Of a DNA stretch of 33,689 bases, positions 5,392 through 31,561 are shown in pieces. The notes beneath the pieces were generated by a model that saw only the letters and a program-made list of their open reading frames with translations, did not search any database and was not told the DNA's origin. Position 1 is the stretch's first letter. Each line of letters starts with the position of its first letter. The position numbers were made by a program, and so were the translations under genes. This stretch comes from Fibrobacterota bacterium (GTDB lineage: Bacteria > Fibrobacterota > Fibrobacteria > UBA11236): NCBI GenBank assembly GCA_023249635.1, contig JAHFCH010000051.1, positions 1 through 33,689 on the forward strand. The letters run 5' to 3'.

Positions 5392-5608
5392 TTTCCCCTC
5401 CAAATGAAATGGCGGGGATCAATCAAACTTATTTTTTCCACGCTTCGCGGCCGCTCCCGGAACAAACGTGATCGCCGCGAGTACGTTGTATGGGAAGTCG
5501 GGATGTTTCAGGAAAGCTTGGGGAGGCCTTTATGGGATATCCCCGCCGGACAACGCGAATGCCCTGTTTTTAAGGATTAGGGCCGGTCCAAGTGGTATAT
5601 TAGAATGC
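5392..5608. promoter_or_regulatory. Divergent intergenic region upstream of the Phe/Tyr catabolic operon
   Basis: These 217 bases separate the starch-binding-like gene from the operon. A TATATT at 5596-5601 lies only eight bases before the ATG at 5609, without a convincing -35 element. No Shine-Dalgarno sequence precedes that ATG. The first gene of the operon might therefore be translated from a leaderless mRNA. The GGAGGGG before 5391 serves the other strand. No clear regulator site was recognised. Confidence 0.25.
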
Positions 5609-7642
5609 ATGGCTGATTCCCCGGCTACCGGCGGTAAAGCCGCCTGGGAAGGCGGTAAAGCCGCCTGGGAGCCCGATTCCGCTACGCGCTCCCGCGCGCG
5701 ATTGACCCGCTTTATGGCGGACTGCGGTTGCGCTACCTGGGAAAAGTTCCACCAATACTCCATCACGGATCCGGCGCGCTTCACCGAAGCCGTATTGCGC
5801 TTTCTGGATATCCGTTTCGATACGCATTACACGCGCGTCCTCGATACCGCGCGCGGACCGGCTTGGCCGGCCTGGTGCGTCGGAGGCGGTCTGAACATTT
5901 CCCGGTCGTGCCTGGACAAGCATGTCGAAACCGGCCATGGCGATCGGCCCGCGCTCATCTGGGAAGGGGAAGAAGGCGGCGTCCGTACGCTTATCTACGG
6001 CGAACTCCATGCGCAAGTCGAGGCCTGCGCGGCCGGCCTGCGGGCCTCGGGCCTGGGCGCCGGCGATGCCGTGGGCCTGCACCTGCCCATGCTGCCCGAA
6101 ACCGTCATCGCCCTCTTGGCCTTGGCCCGTATCGGCGCCGTCGCCGTTCCCTTGTTTTCCGGATATGGTCCCACCGCCCTCGCGGCCCGCCTCCAGGACG
6201 TGGAAGCCAAGGCGGTATTCACCTGCGACGGATTCCCGCGCCGGGGGAAACCGGTGGCCGCCAAACCGGCCATGGATGAGGCGCTGCGCGAATGCCCGGG
6301 TGTGGCGAAGGTGTTCATGGTGGCGCGGCTGGGCGCGCCCAAGGCGGCATCCGCCGCGCGGTCGGTCGCCCGCGAAGTGTCCTGGGAAGATCTGATCGCG
6401 CTCGGCTCCGCCCCCGGCGCCGACGGCTCCGCGGCCCGCACCGGCGCCGAGGATCCCCTGCTCATCCTGTATACCTCGGGCACCACCGGTCGGCCTAAGG
6501 GCATACTGCATACCCATTGCGGCTTCCCTATCAAGGCGGCCCAGGACATGGCCCTGGGCACCGATGTGGGACCCGGGGACCGTATCACCTGGGTTACCGA
6601 CATCGGATGGATGATGGGACCCTGGCTCATCTATGGCGCCGCCCTGCTGGGGGCGACGATTACCCTTTACGACGGCGCTCCGGATTTCCCGGCGCCCGAT
6701 CGCCTGTGGGAATTCTGCGCCCGCCACCGCGTGGGCATCCTGGGGATTTCCCCTTCCCTGATCCGCGCCTTGATGGTGCGGGGCGATGATCTGCCCGCGC
6801 ACCATGATCTCTCCGCGTTGCGCATCCTGGCTTCCACGGGCGAACCCTGGAACCCGGATCCCTGGTGGTGGCTGTTCGAAAAGGTGGGGGGCGGCAAGCT
6901 CCCCATCATCAACTACTCCGGAGGCACGGAGGTTTCCGGGGGCATCCTTATGGGCAATCCGCTGCTTCCCATCAAACCCTGTTCCTTTCCCGCCCCCTGT
7001 CCCGGCATCGACGCCGGGATCGTGGATGAGCAGGGCCGGCCCGCGACGGCGGGAGCGGTAGGGGAACTCGTGATCCGGGCGCCCTGGATAGGCATGGCCC
7101 GGGGCTTCTGGCGCGACCCGGAACGTTATCTGGCTACTTATTGGAATCGGTGGCCGGGTCTATGGGTCCACGGCGACTGGGCCCAGATGGACGCCGACAG
7201 GCATTGGTACATCCTGGGGCGCAGCGATGATACGCTTAAGGTGGCGGGAAAAAGGGTGGGACCGGCCGAGGTGGAATCCATCCTGACGGCGGACCCGCGG
7301 GTCATGGAGGCTGCCGTGATAGGCGTGCCGGATGAACGCAAAGGGCAGGCCATGGCGGCCTTTTGCATCCTGGCGCCGGGGGTAACCGGCGAGGTACCCG
7401 GCCTGGGCGAGGATCTCAAGGGCCGCGTGGCCGCGGAACTCGGGAAACCGCTGCGGCCGGACGCGGTGCATTTCGTGGCGGCCTTGCCGCGCACGCGCAA
7501 CGCCAAGGTGATGCGGCGCGTGATCAGGGCGGCCTACCTGGGCCTGGACCCGGGAGACGTGACGGCATTGGAGAATCCGGCCTCGCTCGCCGAGATCGCG
7601 CGGGCCGGAATAGCAGGCAAGCAAGGGGAGCAGCATGGGTGA
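5609..7642 (+). CDS. AMP-forming acyl-CoA synthetase, candidate acetoacetyl-CoA synthetase
   Basis: The product has 677 residues in the ANL (adenylate-forming) superfamily, closest in pattern to acetyl-CoA/acetoacetyl-CoA synthetases. Visible motifs are the P-loop [12 protein letters not shown] near residue 290, [16 protein letters not shown], the GGTEVSGG adenine/carboxylate motif, [10 protein letters not shown], and [21 protein letters not shown]. The C-terminal NAKVMRR holds the likely catalytic lysine. An N-terminal ACAS-type extension is present. As first gene of the Phe/Tyr operon it could activate the acetoacetate released by FahA; that substrate is inference, and acetate or another short acid is possible. 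ATG 5609 is chosen because upstream residues do not look like protein. A 21-bp tandem duplication repeats GKAAWEG near the N-terminus. The gene overlaps hpd by eight bases. Confidence 0.85.
5630..5670 (+). repeat. 21-bp tandem duplication in the acyl-CoA synthetase N-terminus
   Basis: The unit at 5630-5650 is repeated at once from 5651, identical over 20 bases. It keeps the reading frame and gives two copies of the residues GKAAWE. Confidence 0.85.
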
Positions 7643-8735
7643 TCAGGATATCCGCATCAAACGGGTCCACCACGTGGAATTCTACGTGGGCAACGCCAAG
7701 CAGGCGGAGTTCTTCTACCGCCAGGCGTTCGGCTTCGCGCGCGTGGCCTATGCCGGTCTCGAGACCGGCTCGCGCGACCGCGCCTCCTACGCCTTGCGGC
7801 AAGGCAAGGCCACCTTCGTCGTGACTTCGCCTTACGGCGTCGATGGCGAGAGCGCCCCCATCGGCGAACATATCCGGAAGCACGGCGACGGCGTACGCGA
7901 CATCGCGTTGGAAGTGGACGATGCCGAAAAGGCCTTCGACATCGCGGTCGCGCGCGGCGCCGAGCCCGCCTACGCGCCCAAAGAACTCCGCGATGAGCAC
8001 GGAACCGCCAAGCGCGCGGCCGTCAAGGTTTACGGCGACACCATCCACTCCTTCCTCTCGCTGGGCGACTACCGCGGCCCCTTCCTGCCGGGTTACGCGA
8101 CCGCCTCCGTTCCCGGCAGGGACGCCGGACTGGCCGCCCTCGACCATTACGTGGCCAACGTGCATCTGGGCGAGATGGCCAAATGGGAAGAATGGTATAC
8201 GCGGGTGTTGGGGCTGCGCCGCTTCATGACTTTCGAAGACGCCGATATCAGTACCGAGTTCACGGCCCTCAACAGCGTGGTGATGGCCAACGATTCGCGC
8301 AGTCTCAAGTTCCCCATCAACGAACCCGCGCCGGGCCGCCGCAAAAGCCAGGTGGAGGAGTACAACGATTTCTACCGCAGTCCCGGCGTGCAGCATATCG
8401 CCCTGCTTACCGGGGACATCCTGGCCACGGTCAGGCGGTTGCGGGACAACGGCGTCAATTTCCTGCGCGTCCCCGACGCATATTACGAGGCGCTGCCCGC
8501 CCGCATCGGGAACATCGCGGAAGCCTTGCCGGCCCTCAAGGAGCTGGGTATCCTGGCCGACAAGGACGAGGACGGTTACCTGTTGCAGATCTTCACCCAG
8601 CCGCTGGAAGATCGTCCCACCCTGTTCCTGGAAATCATCCAGCGCAAGGGCTGCCAGGGTTTCGGCAAAGGCAATTTCAAAGCCCTGTTCGAGGCCATCG
8701 AGCGCGAACAGGATCGCCGCGGGAACCTGGTATGA
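7635..8735 (+). CDS. hpd: 4-hydroxyphenylpyruvate dioxygenase
   Basis: The product has 366 residues, the normal family length. It is a non-haem iron enzyme (EC 1.13.11.27) turning 4-hydroxyphenylpyruvate and O2 into homogentisate and CO2 in the cytoplasm. It shows two vicinal-oxygen-chelate halves. The N-terminal one starts at [18 protein letters not shown]; the C-terminal one carries the iron ligands H171 (ALDHYVAN), H254 (GVQHIALLT) and E333 (FLEIIQRKG). The C-terminal gate region ([20 protein letters not shown]) is complete. It overlaps the preceding ligase by eight bases, and its TGA overlaps the hmgA ATG (ATGA at 8732-8735), indicating translational coupling. Confidence 0.97.
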
Positions 8736-10036
8736 GCGGCCCGGCGGACAATGGCTGCCTGGCCGGTTTCGGCAACGAGTTCGCCAGCGAAGCCCTGGCC
8801 GGCGCCTTGCCGCAAGCACAGAATTCGCCGCAACAGGCGCCCATGGGCTTGTACGCGGAACAATTCAGCGGCACGGCTTTTACGGCGCCCCGCGCGGCCA
8901 ACCGCCGATCCTGGCTCTATCGTATCCATCCTTCCGCGAAACAATCCCCGTTCCGCGCGCTGCCCCGGACTCTCCTGACCGCTGGTGCCTTCGACGGCGC
9001 CGCCGCCACCGCTCCCGATCCGCTGCGCTGGGATCCCCTCCCCCTGCCCTCCGCGCCCACGGATTTCCTCGCGGGCCTGGCGGCCATGGCAGGTAACGGG
9101 AATGTTACCCAACAGGAAGGCTGCGCCGCGTACTGCTATACCGCCAACGCCTCCATGACGGAGACTTTCTTTTCGAGCGCCGACGGGGAATGGCTGCTCG
9201 TGCCCCAGCTCGGCCGCTTGCGGCTGCGCACCGAGTTGGGGATACTGGAAATCGCGCCCGGGGAAATCGCCCTCCTTCCCCGCGGCATCCGGTTCCAAGT
9301 GGAATTGCCCGATGGCGCTTCGCGCGGGTATGCCTGCGAGAATTTCGGCCAGCCCTTCCGCCTGCCCGAGCTGGGCCCCATCGGCGCCAACGGCCTGGCC
9401 CATCCCCTGGACTTCCTGAGCCCGCGCGCCGCCTTCGAAGACAAGCCCGGCCGCTTCCGCCACATCGCCAAGTTCCAAGGCCGGCTGTGGGAATCGGAAC
9501 TGGATCATTCGCCCCTGGACGTGGTCGCCTGGCGCGGCAACCTGGCGCCCTGCAAATACGATCTGCGCCGGTTCAACGCCATGGGTTCGGCGGGTTTCGA
9601 TCATCCCGATCCTTCCATCTTCACCGTGCTCACTTCGCCTTCGCCCCTGGCAGGCACCGCCAATGTCGATTTCGTGATCTTCCCGCCCCGTTGGCAGGTG
9701 GCCGAACATACTTTCCGGCCTCCCTGGTTCCATCGCAACGTGATGAGCGAATTCATGGGCCTTATCGAAGGCGCTTATGACGCCAAGGCCGAGGGCTTCG
9801 TGCCCGGGGGGGCCAGCCTGCACAATTGCATGACCGGGCATGGGCCCGATGCCGGAACCGTGGCCAAGGCCGCGGCGGCCGAGCTCAAGCCCGATTATCT
9901 TTCCGGTACCTTGGCCTTCATGTTCGAATCCCGTTGGGTATTCCATCCCACGCCTTTCGCCCTGGCGACTCCGGCGTTGCAAAAGGACTACGCGGGATGC
10001 TGGCGCGATATCCCCAAGCGGTTCCCGGGGGTATGA
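8732..10036 (+). CDS. hmgA: Homogentisate 1,2-dioxygenase
   Basis: The product has 434 residues, the usual length. It opens the ring of homogentisate to give 4-maleylacetoacetate (EC 1.13.11.5). The N-terminus starts with [16 protein letters not shown] and [18 protein letters not shown], typical of the family. The iron ligands correspond to H334 and E340 ([13 protein letters not shown]) and H370 (CMTGHGPD), matching human H335, E341 and H371. The ATG at 8732 overlaps the hpd stop; the frame is open further upstream, but that is the shadow of hpd. The stop at 10034-10036 overlaps the next start in the same ATGA manner. Confidence 0.97.
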
Positions 10037-10920
10037 TGGAAACGGCGCTAAGCATCCTCATGGAAGGCCTCATCGACTACGCGGGCCTGTATCCGCCCGC
10101 CTCCCTGGGCATGGATACGGCGACCCGCAATTACGCCGCCTACCGCAAGGGGCACCAGGCCGAATGGCTGGGACGCTTCGTGCTCCCGGTGGCGCGCCTG
10201 AAGGAATTTTCCGCCGCGCGCGCCACGCTTCCCGCGGGCACTTGGAAACTCGCCGCTTTGATCGGCACTGACCCCGTGCTCGACTTGTCGCAGCTGGCCG
10301 AATTCAACCGCGCCGGTTTCCTGTACGCCGAACCCGCAGCCCGCATCGATACCCTGGAGATGAAGGCCGACAGGCCGAGTGACATCGCGCGCGTACTGGA
10401 AGCCGCCCCCGACGACGTGATCGCCTATTTCGAAATCCCCCTGGCCGATCCCGGCCATTGCCTGGCCGAACTGGCCCGCCTGGGCGGGCGCGCCAAGCTG
10501 CGTACCGGCGGAGTTACCCCCGATCGCATCCCTTCCTCCGCCGAGGCGGCCGCCTTCGTCGCCGCCTGCGCAGCCGCCCGGGTACCCCTCAAGGCCACGG
10601 CCGGCCTGCACCATCCCTTCCGCTCCTTGCGCCCGCTGACGTATGCCCCGGACAGCCCCAAGGCCATGATGCACGGCTTCGTAAACGTCTTCCTGGCCGC
10701 CGCCTTCGCCACCCAGGGGGCTCCCGCCGCGGAACTGGAGGCCTTGCTGGACGAGACTTCGCCGCAAGCCTTCCGGTTCACAAGCGACGGCGTGCAATGG
10801 CGCAACCGCCGCATCGACGCCGAGAGCCTGCGCCGGGCCCGCGGGGATTTCGCCATCGCCTTCGGTTCCTGTTCTTTCGAGGAACCGCGGCAGGATTTAC
10901 GGGAGGCGGGATGGCTATGA
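10033..10920 (+). CDS. Unrecognised conserved-looking protein between hmgA and fahA
   Basis: The product has 295 residues with no signal peptide or membrane segment. I cannot name its family with certainty. The sequence alternates helix and strand in the way of a TIM barrel. It contains K155-L-R-T-G-G, then 32 residues later K187-A-T-A-G-L-H-H-P, and later HGFVNVF (H214) and FGSCSFEEP near the C-terminus. The two lysine motifs resemble, in kind and spacing, the K-T-S-T-G and K-A-x-G-G motifs of class I aldolases such as DeoC, hinting at Schiff-base chemistry. It is coupled by ATGA overlaps to both hmgA and fahA, so it very probably works in homogentisate breakdown. No maleylacetoacetate isomerase is seen in the operon, and this protein could fill that step. 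ATG 10036 is an alternative start. Confidence 0.85.
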
Positions 10921-12257
10921 CGCGCGGCATCGACGAAACCCATGACGCGGCATTGACCAGTTGGCTGCCCGGGGCCAATGCCCCTGGCCACGATTTCCCC
11001 ATCCAGAATCTTCCCTTCGGGATTTTCCGCCGGCGGGGATCGGGGGAGCCGCCCCATGCCGGCGTCGCGATCGGCGATCGCGTTCTCGACATCGCGGCCT
11101 GCCGGACCGCCGGACTTTTCACGGGCCTGGCCTCCGAAGCCGCCGCCGTATGCGGCGATGCCTCGCTCAACCGCTTGGCCGCCTTGGGTCCAGCCCATGC
11201 CGGCGCTCTACGCGGCCAAATCAGCGCTTTGCTGCGCGCGGGCGATACCCGCATCGCGGGACTGCCCGACTGGGAAACCCGCGTGTTACCTCGGATTTCC
11301 GAATGCGAACTGTTCCTGCCCATGGAAACAGGCGACTATACCGATTTCTACGCCTCCATCCATCATGCGACCAACGTAGGGCGCCTGTTCCGTCCCGAGC
11401 AACCGCTGTTGCCGAATTACAAGCATGTCCCCATCGGGTACCATGGCCGCGCTTCTTCACTCATCCTAGACGGCACTCCGGTGCGCCGACCCATGGGCCA
11501 GACCCAGGCTTCGCCCGATGGCCTGCAGCCCCCGTCCTTCGGGCCCTGCAAGGCCCTGGACTACGAAGTCGAGGCCGGTTTGATCATCGGGACCGGGAAC
11601 CCCCTGGGGACCCGCATCCCGGTGGCCGCGGCGGAAGATCATCTTTTCGGCATGTGCCTTCTCAACGATTGGTCCGCGCGGGATCTCCAGAAATGGGAAT
11701 ACCAACCCTTGGGGCCTTTCCTCGCCAAAAGCTTCGCGACCACCCTCTCACCCTGGGTCATCACCTGGGAGGCCCTGGCGCCTTACCGCGCGGCCGCCGC
11801 GGCCCACCCTTCCGGCGATCCCGCGCCTCTGGCCTATCTCGATCAGGGGAGCGCCTCCGGGCGCGCCGCCATCAATCTCGTTTGCGAACTCCACCTGCTC
11901 ACGCCCGCCATGCGGCAACAGAGCCTTGCCCCGGCGCGCCTCAGCCGCGCCCACGCCCGGGATTTGTATTGGACCCCGGCGCAGTTGCTGGCGCATCATG
12001 CCTCCAACGGTTGTAACCTGAGGCCGGGCGATATCCTCGGCACGGGAACGATCTCGGGACCGGATGCGGAAAATCGCGGCTGCCTGTTGGAGCTGACCCA
12101 GGGCGGTAAGGATGCCGTCGTTTTGCCCGCTGGCGAAACCCGCCGCTACCTGCAGGACGGGGACGAAGTCATCCTTTCGGGCCATTGCGAAGCGCCCGGT
12201 TTCGTCCGCATCGGCTTCGGGGAGTGCCGCGGTACGGTTCTGCCTGCCGTGGGATAA
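10917..12257 (+). CDS. fahA: Fumarylacetoacetase
   Basis: The product has 446 residues. It hydrolyses 4-fumarylacetoacetate to fumarate and acetoacetate (EC 3.7.1.2), the last ring-cleavage step. The N-terminal domain includes NLPFGIF. The catalytic domain has GDYTDFYASIHHATNVG, NYKHVPIGYHGR, LDYEVEAGLIIG and LLNDWSARDLQKWEY. Metal ligands by comparison with the mouse enzyme are D143, E217, E219 and D251; the catalytic histidine is H150. All are present with the same spacing as mouse D126/H133. The ATG at 10917 gives the ATGA overlap seen throughout this operon. ATG 10911 is an alternative, four bases after GGAGG, which may be too tight. Confidence 0.96.
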   Translation: MTRGIDETHDAALTSWLPGANAPGHDFPIQNLPFGIFRRRGSGEPPHAGVAIGDRVLDIAACRTAGLFTGLASEAAAVCGDASLNRLAALGPAHAGALRGQISALLRAGDTRIAGLPDWETRVLPRISECELFLPMETGDYTDFYASIHHATNVGRLFRPEQPLLPNYKHVPIGYHGRASSLILDGTPVRRPMGQTQASPDGLQPPSFGPCKALDYEVEAGLIIGTGNPLGTRIPVAAAEDHLFGMCLLNDWSARDLQKWEYQPLGPFLAKSFATTLSPWVITWEALAPYRAAAAAHPSGDPAPLAYLDQGSASGRAAINLVCELHLLTPAMRQQSLAPARLSRAHARDLYWTPAQLLAHHASNGCNLRPGDILGTGTISGPDAENRGCLLELTQGGKDAVVLPAGETRRYLQDGDEVILSGHCEAPGFVRIGFGECRGTVLPAVG

Positions 12258-12266
12258 ACAAAAGCC

Positions 12267-13109
12267 ATGGAGCACGGTCCTGACTTCGTCATCGAGCAAC
12301 CCATCGACCGTTATACCGCCGAGGATCAGGCGGTCTGGCACGCCCTCTGCGCGCGCCAGGCCAAGTTGTTGCCGGGGCGCGCCTGCGCCGAATTCCTGGC
12401 CGGCCTCCAAGGGTTGTCCGTGGTCGGCGAAGGCATCCCCGATTTCGCCCGCCTCAACCGCACCCTGCGGGCCGCGACGGGCTGGGAACTGGTGGCCGTG
12501 CCCGGATTGGTTCCCGATGCCGTCTTCTTCGAGCACCTGGCCCATCGCCGCTTTCCCACCGCCTGGTGGATACGCAAGCACGAGCAAATCGATTACCTGC
12601 AAGAGCCGGACGTATTCCACGATCTCTACGGACACGTGCCCTTGCTGATGAACCCGGTCTTCGCCGATTACCTGCAGGCCTACGGACAGGGCGGGATGAA
12701 GGCCGGCCGCCTCGGCGAGATCACGCATCTGGCGCGCCTCTACTGGTATACGGTCGAGTTCGGTCTCATCCGCGACGCTTCCGCGCCGGGCGGTTTGAAA
12801 ATCTACGGATCCGGGATCCTGTCTTCACAAGCGGAATCCATCTATTGCCTGGATAGCGCCTCGCCGAACCGCGTGGCCTTTGATCTGTTACGGGTCATGC
12901 GCACCAAATACCGCATCGATACCTTCCAGAAGACCTACTTCGTGGTCGACGACTTCGCGCAATTGTTCGATGCCACGCGGCCCGACTTTCGTCCCTACTA
13001 TGAAAGCCTGCATGGCATGGCCGAGTTGGGTTCGGGCGATTTAGATGCGGGCGATACGGTGATTACCCGCGGTAATCGCGAAGGTTGGGCAGACAGCGCC
13101 GACGTGTGA
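12267..13109 (+). CDS. phhA: Phenylalanine 4-monooxygenase
   Basis: The product has 280 residues, typical for bacterial single-domain enzymes without the regulatory ACT domain. It hydroxylates phenylalanine to tyrosine with O2 and a tetrahydropterin (EC 1.14.16.1). Family motifs are YTAEDQAVWHALCARQ, the PGLVPDAVFFEHLAHRRFP segment, and the iron ligands H118 and H123 (DVFHDLYGHVPLL) with E164 (WYTVEFGL). It follows fahA by nine bases and closes the operon, feeding tyrosine into the pathway. No pterin-4a-carbinolamine dehydratase (phhB) and no tyrosine aminotransferase are in the window; they must be elsewhere or replaced. It ends six bases before the convergent RDD gene. Confidence 0.97.
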   Translation: MEHGPDFVIEQPIDRYTAEDQAVWHALCARQAKLLPGRACAEFLAGLQGLSVVGEGIPDFARLNRTLRAATGWELVAVPGLVPDAVFFEHLAHRRFPTAWWIRKHEQIDYLQEPDVFHDLYGHVPLLMNPVFADYLQAYGQGGMKAGRLGEITHLARLYWYTVEFGLIRDASAPGGLKIYGSGILSSQAESIYCLDSASPNRVAFDLLRVMRTKYRIDTFQKTYFVVDDFAQLFDATRPDFRPYYESLHGMAELGSGDLDAGDTVITRGNREGWADSADV

Positions 13110-15326: not shown

Positions 15327-15743
15327 ATGTCCAAGATCCTCATCTTCGAACCGGAAACGCGGTACCGGGTCCTGCTGCGCTATATCCTCGAAGGCATCAA
15401 CCATCGCGTGCTCGATGCCGGCACTTGGGACGATATTCCCGTGCTGCTCGCCTCGGACCGCCCCGACCTGATCGTCCTGGGCGTGCATCTGGGCGAAGAC
15501 GACTCCGAAAGCACCGGAATGCTCACCTGGCCGGAGTGGCAATTGGCCCTGCCCGAGGTCCCCACCCTGCTGCTCTTCTCGGGCGATCCCGATTTACGCG
15601 AAGGCTTTCTGGACTCCTGGGACGGCGCGAAGCTCTTGAACGTGATGGTGCAGCCGGTTGAGCCGTACCCGCTGCTGGCGATGGTGAAGTCGATGTTGAC
15701 TGCGCCTGAGGTTTGGCGCAGGGGCGGGCAGCATATCGTTTGA
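15327..15743 (+). CDS. Degenerate response-regulator receiver domain protein
   Basis: The product has 138 residues and is a single domain of the CheY-like fold: KILIFEPE (strand 1), RPDLIVLGVHLG (strand 3), VPTLLLFSG (strand 4) and LLNVMVQPVEPYPLL (strand 5 and after). The phosphoacceptor aspartate that normally ends strand 3 is replaced by G52 (LIVLG rather than LIVLD). The conserved lysine before the cis-proline is Q109 (VQPVEP). The first acidic pocket is E8/E10 rather than two aspartates. The protein therefore probably cannot be phosphorylated and may act as a pseudo-receiver. No DNA-binding domain is attached. The ATG at 15327 follows GGGAG by five bases. No kinase gene is nearby. Confidence 0.75.
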   Translation: MSKILIFEPETRYRVLLRYILEGINHRVLDAGTWDDIPVLLASDRPDLIVLGVHLGEDDSESTGMLTWPEWQLALPEVPTLLLFSGDPDLREGFLDSWDGAKLLNVMVQPVEPYPLLAMVKSMLTAPEVWRRGGQHIV

Positions 15744-16215: not shown

Positions 16216-18330
16216 TCAGGCGGGGCTGATGCGGATGGGTCCTGCGGCGTCGCGGGCGTCCTGGGCGGCTTGGGCTTCGCGGCGTTCTTGATCGCGGCTG
16301 GAGTCGCGATCCGAATCCTCGCTGGTCTGGGTGGAATCGCGCATCCAATGGGAGCCCAGGTTGGTGGGGATGTAGACCGGGTCCTTCTTCAGCATCACGC
16401 GTATCCGCCGGGTATCCATATTGTCGCGGATGGATGTGAAGGAGAACTTCTGCAGCAGGCGGTTGAGCTTCCATTCCAGGCTGTGCAGGTTCACGTAGTG
16501 CTGGAAGGTCTTTACCAGGCCTACGCTGACGCGGCGCTGATCCTGATCGAGCTCCCAAGGGTGGAAGTAGACCATGGCGGGATTGCCCTTCCGGTTGCAG
16601 CTTTCGATGAAGCTTTCCGTGACCGCGTGCGGGAACAGGCGTAGGTAGCCGCCGCCGGACATGGGCAGGAACTTGTTGCCCACGCCCAGGGTGGACATGG
16701 GGAATTCGTGGAGCTGGCTGCCGCTTTGCAAATGCAGGGTATGCGGCATGCGGTTGGGATAATCCGGGATGCCGTAACGATCTCGCTTGATGGGGAAGAT
16801 GCTGGAATCGTATTCCAAGCCGTGCTTGGCCATGATTTCCAGCGCCCAATAAGTGCCGGGCACGATGGTGAAGTTCGAGGCGCGATGCCCCAGGATGGGC
16901 TCCTTGGCGTGCTTGGAGATGGCTTCCAGGGACTTGAGCAAATCCTCTTCATAACTGGCCGGGGTCATGTCCGTGATCAGGTTGTGGTAATAACCGTGAG
17001 TGCCGATTTCATGGCCTTCGGCGGCGATCATCTTCACCACTTCCGGAAAGCGGTCGGCCACCCAGCCCAGCACGAAGAAGGTGGCCTTGGCCTCGTGGGA
17101 GCGGAACAGCCCGAGGATGCGCTCCATGTTGTTCACGATGCGCGTTTCCTGGTGGTGCCATACCGCGGGCGGGATTTTCTCTTTGAGATTGTAGGCATGG
17201 AACCAGCATTCCACGTCCACGGTCATGAAGTTGCGTACGCGGCTCTGGGGGCGGGCCACGTCCACCACCTTGTCCATGTGGATTTCCTGGAGCATGCGGC
17301 GCACCCGGGCGCTGGGCTCGCGCACCGAGAGGCGGCCGCCGGCCTGGTTCACGCGTTGGGCCAGCTCCACCAGGAAGCCCATGTCCTCCAGATCGAACTC
17401 CTTGCGGGGCGTATAGGAAACTTCCAGGGTCTTAAGACCGCGGGCCGTCAGCCGGCGCAACCGGCCCATGATTTCCCGGGGTTCTTTGCCTTCCAGGACC
17501 ACGGAGCGATCATCGTGATCCAACTTCACCCAAGCGGTCACTTTATGTTTTTCGTGCTTGATCGGCGACTGCGCCAGCATCTTCAGCACCTTGACGCGTT
17601 TCAGGCTCTTGAGATCGCGGGTATCGCCTTCCTTGCGCGGCTTGATGAGCAGGTAGCCGATGGTATTCATCAGCACCCACCATTCCATGCGCCACCACGA
17701 TCCGAAATGGGCGAAGGAAGCGCGGTAGGAATAATCGAAATAGGTTTTGCGGACCACGCTCTCCATGCCGTCGTCGGCGCCCAGGTTGATCTGGGCCAGG
17801 CCGGTGAGGCCGGGCTTGACCCACAAGGTACGGTTGCGGTAATGGGGGATGGTGCGGCCGAACTCGACGGTGAAATGCGCGCGCTCCGGGCGCGGGCCGA
17901 TGAAACTCATGTCGCCCTTGAGTACGCTCCAGAACTGGGGCAGCTCATCAAGGTGCAGGGCGCGCAGCCACCAGCCTACCTTGGTCACGCGCGGGTCCAC
18001 GCCCTTGGCCGCGAATTGCGGTCCGTTCTTTTCGGCGTCGATGCGCATGCTGCGGAACTTATAGACCGGGAACGGTTTGCCGCCCACGTCCGACTTGCGG
18101 ATGGGCATGGCCGCTTCGGCATCCCATTCGTCCTGGCGCCGGCCGGAACGCTTGTTGATGCCGATGCGCTCCTGGCTATATAGCGCGGGGCCTTTGCTTT
18201 CGAGCTTGATGATCAAGGCGATGGCGGGATACAGGAGCGCGAAGGCGGCGGTACCGACCGAGCCAATCGCGATATCGGTAAGGCGTTTGACGACAAGAAC
18301 GCTCGGGCTGGGACGCATCGGTGCAATCAT
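16216..18330 (-). CDS. Three-domain fusion: phosphoglycosyl transferase, STAS, polysaccharide deacetylase
   Basis: One continuous frame encodes 704 residues. Residues 1-235 are a bacterial sugar transferase (monotopic phosphoglycosyl transferase): hydrophobic segment 15-42, FPVYKFRSM, catalytic D128-E129 in LHLDELPQF, LKGDMSFIGPRPER and KPGLTGLAQIN. Residues 262-360 resemble a STAS domain (DMGFLVELAQRVNQAGGRL, ARVRRMLQEIHMDKVVDV). The usual phosphorylatable serine segment reads DLEDMG, with no serine or threonine. Residues 365-640 are a polysaccharide deacetylase of the type with a DUF3473 tail found near XrtA/PEP-CTERM exopolysaccharide genes: FMTVDVECWFH (D372), HEIGTHGYYH (H445, H449), GHRASNFTI and YFHPWELD. 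The C-terminal 65 residues are charged and disordered. It would join lipid-linked sugar initiation to glycan deacetylation in exopolysaccharide assembly. No other polysaccharide genes are adjacent. Confidence 0.9.
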   Translation of the reverse strand: MIAPMRPSPSVLVVKRLTDIAIGSVGTAAFALLYPAIALIIKLESKGPALYSQERIGINKRSGRRQDEWDAEAAMPIRKSDVGGKPFPVYKFRSMRIDAEKNGPQFAAKGVDPRVTKVGWWLRALHLDELPQFWSVLKGDMSFIGPRPERAHFTVEFGRTIPHYRNRTLWVKPGLTGLAQINLGADDGMESVVRKTYFDYSYRASFAHFGSWWRMEWWVLMNTIGYLLIKPRKEGDTRDLKSLKRVKVLKMLAQSPIKHEKHKVTAWVKLDHDDRSVVLEGKEPREIMGRLRRLTARGLKTLEVSYTPRKEFDLEDMGFLVELAQRVNQAGGRLSVREPSARVRRMLQEIHMDKVVDVARPQSRVRNFMTVDVECWFHAYNLKEKIPPAVWHHQETRIVNNMERILGLFRSHEAKATFFVLGWVADRFPEVVKMIAAEGHEIGTHGYYHNLITDMTPASYEEDLLKSLEAISKHAKEPILGHRASNFTIVPGTYWALEIMAKHGLEYDSSIFPIKRDRYGIPDYPNRMPHTLHLQSGSQLHEFPMSTLGVGNKFLPMSGGGYLRLFPHAVTESFIESCNRKGNPAMVYFHPWELDQDQRRVSVGLVKTFQHYVNLHSLEWKLNRLLQKFSFTSIRDNMDTRRIRVMLKKDPVYIPTNLGSHWMRDSTQTSEDSDRDSSRDQERREAQAAQDARDAAGPIRISPA

Positions 18331-18520
18331 AGGGGATGGGCACGGCTTTTTCCAAGATTTTCAGGAATTACTGCCTATTCCGCGGAAATTTGGCCATTCC
18401 GATAATTTCCAGTGAACGCTTCCCCAGCCTCTTCCCCAAAAGCGTATTTCCCAATAGATGGGTCCCCGCGACCTTTCACACGGCGAACTGCGGATGGGGC
18501 GGCCCCCCGGGCGGAGCGAT

Positions 18521-19120
18521 ATGCGCGAATGGCTGATCGATAACGGCATTTGGGGGGTGGCATTGCTGATGTTCACCCAGAACATCGTGCCCATACTCCC
18601 CTCGGAAATCATCATGCCGCTGGCCGGGTTCTTGGCCTCGCTGGGCCTGCTGCCTATGCAGGGTGTCGTGCTCGCCGGATTGCTGGGATCCGTGCTCGGA
18701 CACATGCCCTGGTATTTCCTGGGAGCGGCCCTGGGGGAAGAACGTCTGGAAGGATTTCTGGCGAAACCGGGGCGCTTCCTCGCCCTGCGGCGTTCCCATC
18801 TGCAAAGGGCCGGGGCCTGGTTTGATCGCAATTCCGTGAAAGCGGTTTTGCTAGGGCGCCTGGTGCCCGGCCTGCGGACGTGCGTGAACATTCCGGCCGG
18901 CGCGGCGCGCATGGCCTTCCTGCCCTACCTCGGATATACCCTGCTGGGGGATGCGCTGTGGACCACGGTGCTCGGGTACGGCGGATACGGGATGGGACGC
19001 GATTATCCCCTCATCGCGCGCTATCTCCACTACGCGATCTGGCCGTTGGTCGCTTGCGCTTTCCTCGCCTTGGCCTGTACGGCATTGCGTCGCCACTTGC
19101 GCGGCCACCGCACCGTTTGA
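18521..19120 (+). CDS. DedA family membrane protein
   Basis: The product has 199 residues with four to five hydrophobic segments and belongs to the DedA/SNARE-associated (VTT) family of inner-membrane proteins, linked to lipid flipping, membrane energetics and drug sensitivity. Family features are an early acidic P-x-E segment (VPILPSEIIMPLAGFLA), the GSVLGHMPWYFLGAALG segment, and the conserved loop GRLVPGLRTCVNIPAGAARM. The last is the usual F/G-R-x-x-P-x-x-R pattern. The final segment LWTTVLGYGGYGMG matches the family W-x-x-x-L-x-x-x-G-Y. The ATG at 18521 follows GGAG by five bases. It is divergent from the fusion gene across 190 bases, where I see no clear promoter. Confidence 0.92.
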   Translation: MREWLIDNGIWGVALLMFTQNIVPILPSEIIMPLAGFLASLGLLPMQGVVLAGLLGSVLGHMPWYFLGAALGEERLEGFLAKPGRFLALRRSHLQRAGAWFDRNSVKAVLLGRLVPGLRTCVNIPAGAARMAFLPYLGYTLLGDALWTTVLGYGGYGMGRDYPLIARYLHYAIWPLVACAFLALACTALRRHLRGHRTV

Positions 19121-29527: not shown

Positions 29528-29839
29528 CGCACCTCCCGGATTCCGATCGATGTACTGTTTCCGCGCGATTCTAAATCTGATTCCTTTCCATCCGGAAGCG
29601 TATAGGTTTTTGCGGCAAGTCCGCGCTTTGGGGCGATTCCGCTCCCGAAAAGCAAAGGGGATGCCGCTCGCGATACCGCAAAAAGGGAAGAAACGCCGAA
29701 TCACCAGCGTTACCCAGGGTCGCAAACCCGGGGGCACGTCTCGGGCCCCGATGCGTTTTTGACCCTATTCTGTGGTCATCAACGGCGGCCAGGGAGTTGG
29801 GCGCCAATTCATACATGCATGTTTAGAGGGGGATTTCCG
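29528..29839. other. 312-base divergent intergenic region
   Basis: It lies between two divergent genes for secreted proteins. I looked for promoters and riboswitch cores (for example GEMM-type c-di-GMP motifs) and found none convincing. TTGACC at 29760-29765 has no matching -10. GAGGGGG at 29825-29831 is the ribosome-binding site of the next gene. Open frames crossing the region on both strands are extensions of the flanking genes. Confidence 0.4.
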
Positions 29840-31561
29840 ATGGTTCCTGCCAATACCCGTATCGCGGCTTGGGCGATTCTCGCCTGCGTCTGCCTCCCCG
29901 CAAGGGCGCAGTTGACCTATAAGGGTTGCGCCGATCTGCAGGCCTCCGATTTCCAGATGACCGAGCTCTTGAACAAGAAGGGCGACAACGGCGCCGCTTC
30001 CGATCCGGAAATATCCGAACCCACGCGCATGGACGTGCAGGTGATCAACAAGGCCAACGGCCAATATGATCATTCCAACATCATTTTCGTGGAACGCCTG
30101 GGTGCGGTAAAGTGGTACGACGGCGTCGCCAAGAAGGTTACGCAAATGGGCAGCATCAACGTATGGGGCAATGCCGACAACGGGCTGATGGGCGTGGCCT
30201 TCGACCCCCATTTCGCCGATAACCATTGGATCTACCTGTGGTATTCCCCCAAGCAGCTCATCGGGCAGAACCGCCAACTGCGCCTCACGCGCATGGCAGT
30301 GAAGACCGACAATACCCTGGACATGGCCAGCGAGAAGATCCTCATCAACATCCTCGCCAGCCGCACCGATACCTGGCATAGCGGCGGCCCCATGCAATTC
30401 GACGCCTACGGCGATCTGTGGGTGGGCGTGGGCAACAACAGCTCCGATCTCAACCCCGGCGATTGCGATGCCGGCGGCAGCGTGCTTTCCAAGACCGACA
30501 GCACGGCCAGCGCGGAATGGGGTTCCTCGAACACCGCCAGCCTGCGCGGCGGATTCTTCCGCATCCATCCCGACAGCACCGCCAAAGGCTATTCCATCCC
30601 CCGCGGCAACTTCGGGGAGTACTGGGCCGATCAGTTCGAGAAGCAGGGCAAGACGGCCTTGGCCACGCAATACCGCGACACCAAGAAGGTGCTCCCGGAA
30701 GTGTACGTGAAGGGCGAGCGCAGCAATTTCTCCATCGGCGTGCATCCCACCAAACGCTGGCTCAGCTGGGGAACCGTGAACTACGCCAGCGTGAACGACG
30801 AGTTCAACGTGACGGATCATCCCATCTTCAGCGGCTTCCCGTACTTCCACAACAACAACCTGCCCACCTGCGCCCACGGAAAATCCGCCGACGCTCCCGT
30901 GAACAACTCCCCGCTCAACAGCGGCGTGAGCGACTTGCCGCCCGCGGTGCCCGGCGCCATCAACAACCTGGTGAACGTGGCCATCGGCGGGCCCATCTAC
31001 CATTTCGATCCGAGCCTGAACAGCGATACCAAGTTCCCGCCCCATTTCGACAACAAGTGGATCGTCACGGGTTTCCGCGGCGGCATGTGGGCCGTGACCC
31101 TGGATACCGTCACCCTGAAGGTTGTCAACACCCTCAAGGTGGAAGGCGCCCTGTTCGGTTCTTTCACGGTACGCAACCACGTGATGTCCATGTACGGCAA
31201 GGACGGCGCGTTGTATATCCTCAACTACGACGGCTATTACAACAGCGCCCTCAATCCGGGAGTGATGCGCGTGACCTATAAGGGGAATTGCAAGGTGGCC
31301 GTGGCCGCGAAGGATCCGCGCCCGGAACCCTACCAGAAAATCTGGTTAACCCAGCAGGGCATCGAAGTGGGTGAGGCCGGCGCGCACTCGTTGGCGCTGT
31401 TCGACATGCATGGCAAGCGCGTGTTTTCGGCCGAGGGTCGCCAAGGGGATGGGTACCGCTTCGCGGATATCCGCGCCCGTGCCGGGCTGAATGCGGGCTT
31501 GTACCAGGCGCGCGTGACCACGTCGGCCGGAACCTTCACCCGCGCGGTCTCGCTGCTCTGA
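29840..31561 (+). CDS. Secreted PQQ-dependent sugar dehydrogenase-like protein with T9SS-type tail
   Basis: The product has 573 residues. Signal peptide: MVPANTRIAAWAILACVCLP, cut near ARAQ. The glucose/sorbosone dehydrogenase (GSDH) beta-propeller shows SNIIFVERLGAVKWYD, GLMGVAFDPHFADNHWIYLWY, the HSGGPMQFDAYGDLWVGVGNNSSD motif, FSIGVHPTKRWLSWG, and GPIYHFDPSLNS. It probably oxidises a sugar aldose group with PQQ in the periplasm or at the surface. The last 60 residues (HSLALFDMHGKRVFSAEG, AGLNAGLYQARVTTSAG) form a sorting domain like those of T9SS substrates. ATG 29840 is chosen from GAGGGGG seven bases upstream. ThuA-like proteins, such as the one at 1138, often accompany these enzymes in other genomes. 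Confidence 0.9.
   Translation: MVPANTRIAAWAILACVCLPARAQLTYKGCADLQASDFQMTELLNKKGDNGAASDPEISEPTRMDVQVINKANGQYDHSNIIFVERLGAVKWYDGVAKKVTQMGSINVWGNADNGLMGVAFDPHFADNHWIYLWYSPKQLIGQNRQLRLTRMAVKTDNTLDMASEKILINILASRTDTWHSGGPMQFDAYGDLWVGVGNNSSDLNPGDCDAGGSVLSKTDSTASAEWGSSNTASLRGGFFRIHPDSTAKGYSIPRGNFGEYWADQFEKQGKTALATQYRDTKKVLPEVYVKGERSNFSIGVHPTKRWLSWGTVNYASVNDEFNVTDHPIFSGFPYFHNNNLPTCAHGKSADAPVNNSPLNSGVSDLPPAVPGAINNLVNVAIGGPIYHFDPSLNSDTKFPPHFDNKWIVTGFRGGMWAVTLDTVTLKVVNTLKVEGALFGSFTVRNHVMSMYGKDGALYILNYDGYYNSALNPGVMRVTYKGNCKVAVAAKDPRPEPYQKIWLTQQGIEVGEAGAHSLALFDMHGKRVFSAEGRQGDGYRFADIRARAGLNAGLYQARVTTSAGTFTRAVSLL

Follow-up and report, generated by a model that had tools for sequence, protein, structure and literature searches.

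We describe a conserved protein architecture from Fibrobacterota in which a small monotopic phosphoglycosyl transferase (PGT), a STAS domain and an XrtA-type polysaccharide deacetylase form a single polypeptide. The fusion is retained throughout one genus, with the active-site residues of both enzymes intact and a single membrane segment, and genomes of that genus also carry exosortase, FemAB-like, PrsK-, PrsR- and PrsT-like, and T9SS-sortase genes. Taking these observations together, we infer that the fusion may make and deacetylate the initiating lipid-linked sugar of a linking-sugar pathway. It is apparently an undescribed architecture within the known class of bifunctional monotopic PGTs.

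A single reading frame joins three domains

The gene lies in a contig of 33,689 nucleotides (the window). Positions 16216-18330 of the minus strand form one unbroken open reading frame (ORF) of 704 amino acids, with a GC3 of 0.82. The annotated start is at 18330; Met5, at 18318, is conserved among the aligned fusions and is likely the true start. Pfam and NCBIfam agree with the initial annotation that the uninterrupted frame holds, in order, a sugar transferase (PF02397), a STAS-like middle (STAS_2) and an XrtA-type polysaccharide deacetylase with a DUF3473 tail. An AlphaFold2 (AF2) model of the fusion, built from a 99-row alignment, has a mean pLDDT of 87.5. The features of the gene and its neighbours are as follows.

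16216-18330, minus strand: PGT-STAS-deacetylase fusion gene, 704 aa, likely start Met5 at 18318
17626-18330, minus strand: monotopic PGT domain, residues 1-235 (PF02397; PglC/WbaP by sequence and fold)
18199-18306, minus strand: re-entrant membrane helix, residues 9-44 (AF2 secondary structure and hydropathy; the only hydrophobic stretch)
17944-17949, minus strand: catalytic dyad D128-E129, invariant in 18 fusions
17275-17544, minus strand: STAS domain, residues 263-352 (Pfam, AF2, PDB profile search, family matches, Foldseek)
16423-17235, minus strand: XrtA-type CE4 deacetylase with DUF3473 tail, residues 366-636 (TIGR03006 over cut-off; CE4 fold)
17209-17217, minus strand: motif 1, D372-V-E374, predicted base and metal ligand (invariant in fusions; 90-91 of 93 relatives)
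16984-16998, minus strand: HxxxH metal-binding motif, H445-H449 (invariant in fusions; aligns with the HP0310 HxxxH pair)
16561-16563, minus strand: H590, predicted catalytic acid, invariant
16219-16383, minus strand: charged C-terminal tail, residues 650-704 (low confidence, pLDDT mostly 42-82)
15327-15743, plus strand: receiver-like protein without a phospho-acceptor Asp, convergent neighbour (syntenic in 6/6 genomes; no Pfam match; receiver reading by eye)
18458-19120, plus strand: DedA/VTT-domain membrane protein, divergent neighbour (PF09335; syntenic in 5/6 genomes)

The first part is matched by Bac_transf (PF02397) at residues 83-224 (3.9e-46; 157 bits against a cut-off of 27), and its structural matches, by sequence and by Foldseek, are PglC and WbaP (8e37, 8g1n, 8t53). 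The D128-E129 dyad lies where it had initially been placed. The predicted activity of this half is transfer of a sugar-1-phosphate to undecaprenyl phosphate (Und-P). Membership of the large EpsB_2 PGTs was considered and rejected, given that TIGR03013 scores 156.6 bits against a cut-off of 393.35 and matches at model positions 298-416 only, the N-terminal part being absent.

The deacetylase part is recognized by Polysacc_deac_1 at residues 400-482 (3e-17) and by DUF3473 at residues 509-636 (7.8e-42) in Pfam, and by TIGR03006 in NCBIfam at residues 367-635, with 293.3 bits against a cut-off of 276.2; two of the paralogous fusion groups described below, groups 3 and 4, exceed this cut-off as well. 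Foldseek places it with CE4 enzymes, including ArnD (8t0j). In HP0310 (HpPgdA), the metal is bound by Asp14, His86 and His90, and water is held by Asp12 and His247 (PMC3084791); we equate the His pair by direct alignment and the remaining residues by motif. Across four paralogue groups, D128, E129, D372, E374, H445, H449, R483, D508 and H590 are invariant in 18/18 aligned fusions. Since both sets of catalytic residues are preserved, the alignment argues that both enzymes have presumably been kept active.

The middle part is a STAS domain despite a weak Pfam score. In the full-length fusion, STAS_2 matches residues 285-352 at 1.3e-4, under the curated cut-off, and the domain searched alone likewise falls short (26.4 bits against 29.2). 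Three further lines of evidence agree and uphold both this call and the original description of a STAS-like middle: PF13466 is matched by all 14 family members individually (E<=0.05), a PDB profile search with the domain returns TM1081 and RsbV (E 0.01-0.04), and every one of the nine best Foldseek matches to a separate model of moderate confidence (pLDDT 71) is a STAS protein (best E 3e-3), headed by SpoIIAA, RsbV and TM1081. A phosphorylatable Ser before the conserved Gly is absent from all 14 members, 12 of which read D-L-E-D-x-G instead; partner docking therefore seems a likelier role than switching of the SpoIIAA type. Three of the four fusion groups (1-3) carry the STAS domain and group 4 has a linker of 50-78 residues in its place, so the domain is dispensable for the fused architecture.

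The fusion is conserved across a genus

The fusion is real, as first described, but it is no lone oddity. An orthologue of the window gene, with 75-82% identity, is present in 6/6 genomes of the genus, in the neighbourhood moeA / receiver-like gene / fusion / dedA (dedA found in 5/6). Three further paralogous fusions recur at unrelated loci, giving up to four paralogues per genome and 20 complete fused ORFs in the genus, others being broken by contig ends. That an assembly or annotation artefact had fused two genes might be suspected of a genome in 341 contigs, as is the window genome, and an assembly error at the domain joints had been raised as a concern. In six genomes, each assembled independently, the frame runs unbroken across both joints (about 17545-17625 and 17236-17274), which excludes such an error. 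The fusion also has the same syntenic position in all six and recurs at three other loci, which leaves the artefact with practically no probability.

The paralogues lie in varied surroundings: group 2 adjoins a gene that reads as mnmG, group 3 a PrsR-like regulator gene, and group 4 lies upstream of a gene for a polytopic membrane protein. A strict-pattern search upstream of 18 fusions yielded no sigma-54 box. DedA proteins, one of which is encoded beside the window fusion, have been linked to undecaprenyl-phosphate recycling. On the other side, the receiver-like protein has Gly at the expected place of the phospho-acceptor Asp in 5/5 aligned sequences (placed by eye). The PGT EpsZ of Myxococcus is switched on by a response regulator that consists of a single domain, and contact between the two is apparently the means (PMC12802240). 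Synteny holds for the receiver-like gene, but the phospho-acceptor Asp is missing and the genes are convergent, and we rejected it as an equivalent of EpsW; a role in regulating the fusion is a possible lead.

Elsewhere in the window, ORFs at 5468-13109 (plus strand) resemble, by eye, a tyrosine/phenylalanine degradation cluster, with likenesses to acetoacetyl-CoA synthetase, HPPD, homogentisate dioxygenase, fumarylacetoacetase and phenylalanine hydroxylase. A sugar dehydrogenase-like protein (PF07995) is encoded at 29759-31561 (plus strand), and its C-terminal part looks like a T9SS sorting domain by eye.

Both active sites are predicted to face the cytoplasm

The initial annotation had pointed to a puzzle, namely that the inner membrane would be expected to separate the two activities, one on each side. 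The catalytic domain of monotopic PGTs sits on the cytoplasmic face, as is established for PglC and WbaP, and CE4 polysaccharide deacetylases are often extracytoplasmic. Hydropathy analysis found one hydrophobic region per fusion, the re-entrant helix of the PGT, and no further membrane segment in any of the 18. Stand-alone relatives of the deacetylase start at the catalytic domain (in the 65 of 93 deacetylase ORFs whose first motif was caught by the pattern, the start lies a median of 14 residues ahead of it), leaving no room for a signal peptide. A strongly hydrophobic 19-residue window occurs in 4 of the 93: two fusions, a sister-genus protein discussed below and one further ORF (L136). Because the PGT domain would be cytoplasmic, no other hydrophobic segment follows and the relatives lack signal peptides, the C-terminal deacetylase is expected to be cytoplasmic too, and both catalytic sites most likely face the cytoplasm at the inner membrane. 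The puzzle presupposed a periplasmic deacetylase and, on this prediction, largely dissolves. Export of the deacetylase across the membrane, to modify a finished polymer in the periplasm, would accord with the location of many CE4 enzymes, but a second hydrophobic segment is present in 0/18 fusions and use of a UDP-sugar requires a cytoplasmic PGT. We consider it very unlikely, and rejected it on hydropathy and the start sites of relatives.

Origin and distribution of the fusion

In a quick tree with long branches, the PGT halves from the four groups cluster as a single clade that also takes in a small stand-alone PGT encoded by a genome of the same order (SH-aLRT 99), and the deacetylase halves form one clade with sister-genus deacetylases (100/100). 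Since the two halves each cluster together, their histories fit a single fusion followed by duplications. A monophyletic grouping of the fused deacetylases apart from the sister genus is not rejected by the AU test (p 0.24).

One sister-genus deacetylase (L039:9469-10794, genome G008) has an N-terminus resembling the PGT re-entrant helix and no PGT core. Compared with 19 PGTs it reaches scores of 56-87, and none of 105 neighbouring proteins that contain hydrophobic segments gives more than 52; shuffled sequences served as a further control. Its deacetylase groups with fusion group 3 (97/97), and the protein likely descends from a fusion whose PGT core has been lost while its membrane helix was retained. 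Its neighbours are a DegT-type aminotransferase, a FemAB-type gene and a tyrosine autokinase.

Among 168 Fibrobacterota genomes searched, the fusion is confined to the one genus; it was not seen in the other 162, most of whose deacetylases are stand-alone proteins of about 280-330 aa. A search of 84,980 species genomes gave 541 loci, and among the best 80 of these, PGT-deacetylase ORFs occur in two Fibrobacterota records only. The 77 loci outside the phylum (among the same best 80) hold no fusion, and PGT and deacetylase are separate genes. The two are nevertheless often close: a PGT lies within 6 kb of the deacetylase in 21 of these 77 loci, and the two ORFs overlap in five (L103, L107, L111, L148, L149). 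The plasmids searched likewise showed no fusion; in annotated Vibrio and Alteromonas plasmid records, a TIGR03013 XrtA glycosyltransferase adjoins an XrtA system polysaccharide deacetylase. Both Pfam families also appear in the list of epsH neighbours given in the paper that first described exosortases (PMC1569441). The earlier statement that XrtA/PEP-CTERM clusters keep the transferase and the deacetylase as separate genes is correct. A 735-aa Planctomycetota protein (L135:4612-6819) has a C-terminal XrtA deacetylase preceded by about 460 residues that have no NCBIfam identification.

Pathway context

The exosortase profile (PF09721) is matched over cut-off in all 6 genomes of the genus, and the 7 relatives searched outside it have no exosortase; with the XrtA-specific exosortase model, the genus scores below cut-off. 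The genes around the exosortase include PrsT-, PrsK- and PrsR-like genes and a tyrosine autokinase, and FemAB-type (TIGR03019), amidotransferase and acyl-CoA-ligase genes occur elsewhere in the genomes. TIGR03019 FemAB-type matches are found in 6/6, three of them over cut-off. For most of these pathway genes, a model of the XrtA system is the best or near-best match, yet the score is under the curated cut-off. In one genome, genes resembling GlcNAc 3-dehydrogenase and DegT aminotransferase lie near the FemAB gene. T9SS sortase matches were obtained in 13/13 genomes searched. No exosortase-type gene stands beside the window fusion, the exosortase being on another contig (C82), and the fused genes, most of which have housekeeping genes as neighbours, are not part of the exosortase cluster; the assignment to a pathway is accordingly a conditional one.

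A precedent for such a pathway was proposed by Veith et al., in which VimE (CE4) strips the C-2 acetyl from a diacetamido uronic sugar, an amino acid is attached by VimA (a relative of TIGR03019), and the resulting sugar links sorted proteins to A-LPS, with the same neighbours present in exosortase loci (PMC7468200).

At another locus (L166:8318-10087, genome G003), adjoining a FemAB gene, an XrtA-type deacetylase-like domain shares a chain with a family-2 glycosyltransferase resembling ArnC. The domain is a probable pseudo-deacetylase, since it has lost the Asp of motif 1, the two metal-binding His and the catalytic His.

A proposed initiating enzyme

We give about an even chance to the reading that the fusion is a bifunctional initiating enzyme at the cytoplasmic face of the inner membrane, in which an N-acetylated sugar loaded by the PGT has its amine uncovered by the deacetylase tethered to it. 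The initial annotation had suggested that initiation is coupled with deacetylation, and this stands as the natural reading of a fused chain with predicted activities. The PGT, held by its re-entrant helix, would move the N-acetylated sugar-1-phosphate from a UDP-sugar to Und-P, and the deacetylase, tethered via the STAS domain, would strip the N-acetyl group from the lipid-linked sugar or a short lipid-linked glycan. Deacetylation would follow transfer, as ArnD acts after ArnC. The amine would probably then be modified by a FemAB/VimA-like GNAT, yielding a linking sugar that may serve as attachment point for exosortase- or T9SS-sorted proteins, and the STAS domain would probably dock a partner.

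In support of this reading are the invariance of both catalytic sets over four paralogue groups, the recurrence of PGT-deacetylase gene pairs in other phyla, the lack of signal peptides in stand-alone relatives, the single hydrophobic segment of the fusion, the Foldseek matches to PglC/WbaP and ArnD, the presence of exosortase in the genus but in none of the 7 relatives searched, together with the FemAB-type and Prs-like genes, and the VimE/VimA precedent. Against it stand the location of the fused genes outside the exosortase cluster, the many XrtA-type matches under curated cut-offs, and the fact that most species keep the enzymes separate, which means that fusion is not required. The substrate of the deacetylase may also be an oligosaccharide further along on the lipid carrier, or a nucleotide sugar. 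In the former case, both enzymes would be active and the PGT would mainly hold the deacetylase at the membrane, the substrate being later glycans made by other enzymes. The sister-genus deacetylase that keeps a PGT-like helix without the PGT core speaks for such tethering, but PGT catalytic residues invariant in four groups are not those of a mere anchor in the genus, and we regard it as a minority possibility. In the latter case, the deacetylase would work on a soluble UDP-sugar and the PGT would then transfer the deacetylated sugar phosphate. NodB-type relatives act on small substrates, as do PuuE-type ones (PMC3084791), and the VimE step is drawn at the sugar level with its position in the pathway not fixed (PMC7468200); the recurrent partner is nonetheless an initiating membrane enzyme and the ArnD precedent is lipid-linked (PMC12748117), making this reverse order rather improbable.

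Relation to known systems

One close pairing is that of XrtA/PEP-CTERM systems (TIGR03013 EpsB_2 PGT plus TIGR03006), which share the deacetylase family and the partnership, often as adjacent genes. That pair consists of two genes, with a large PGT bearing an N-terminal membrane bundle, whereas the window fusion is one chain with a small PGT and a STAS domain, encoded outside the exosortase cluster. Bi-PGTs are bifunctional monotopic PGTs whose core continues, at its C-terminal end, into a second functional domain (PMC10942596). The fusion resembles them in the position of its partner domain and differs in having a deacetylase partner and a STAS domain; a literature search of partial coverage found no report of such a partner, and no description of the PGT-STAS-deacetylase order. 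ArnD, of CE4 fold, acts on an undecaprenyl-linked sugar directly after transfer (PMC12748117), a likeness in step order that the fold match (8t0j) parallels, but ArnC is an unrelated transferase forming Und-P- rather than Und-PP-sugar (Und-P-Ara4FN), the proteins are separate and the reaction is deformylation. The Wbp/Vim system of Porphyromonas offers an analogy in proposed CE4 N-deacetylation, a FemAB/GNAT partner and a sorting context (PMC7468200), although VimE is a separate protein with neither PGT nor STAS, and is likened here by description, not sequence.

A bolder reading, which we offer tentatively, is that these proteins form a class of initiating PGT not seen before, in which a single chain both places the first sugar on its lipid carrier and N-deacetylates it, with up to four isoforms per cell, undecaprenyl carriers dedicated to a sortase-acceptor (linking-sugar) pathway and the STAS domain as a control point.

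Altogether, the gene fusion is a sign of partnership, suggesting that the XrtA-type deacetylase works with an initiating PGT on the cytoplasmic side. This would narrow the search for the substrate of the widespread TIGR03006/DUF3473 family. With one polypeptide carrying both steps for assay, the site of deacetylation in the exosortase/PEP-CTERM or T9SS linking-sugar pathway becomes testable.
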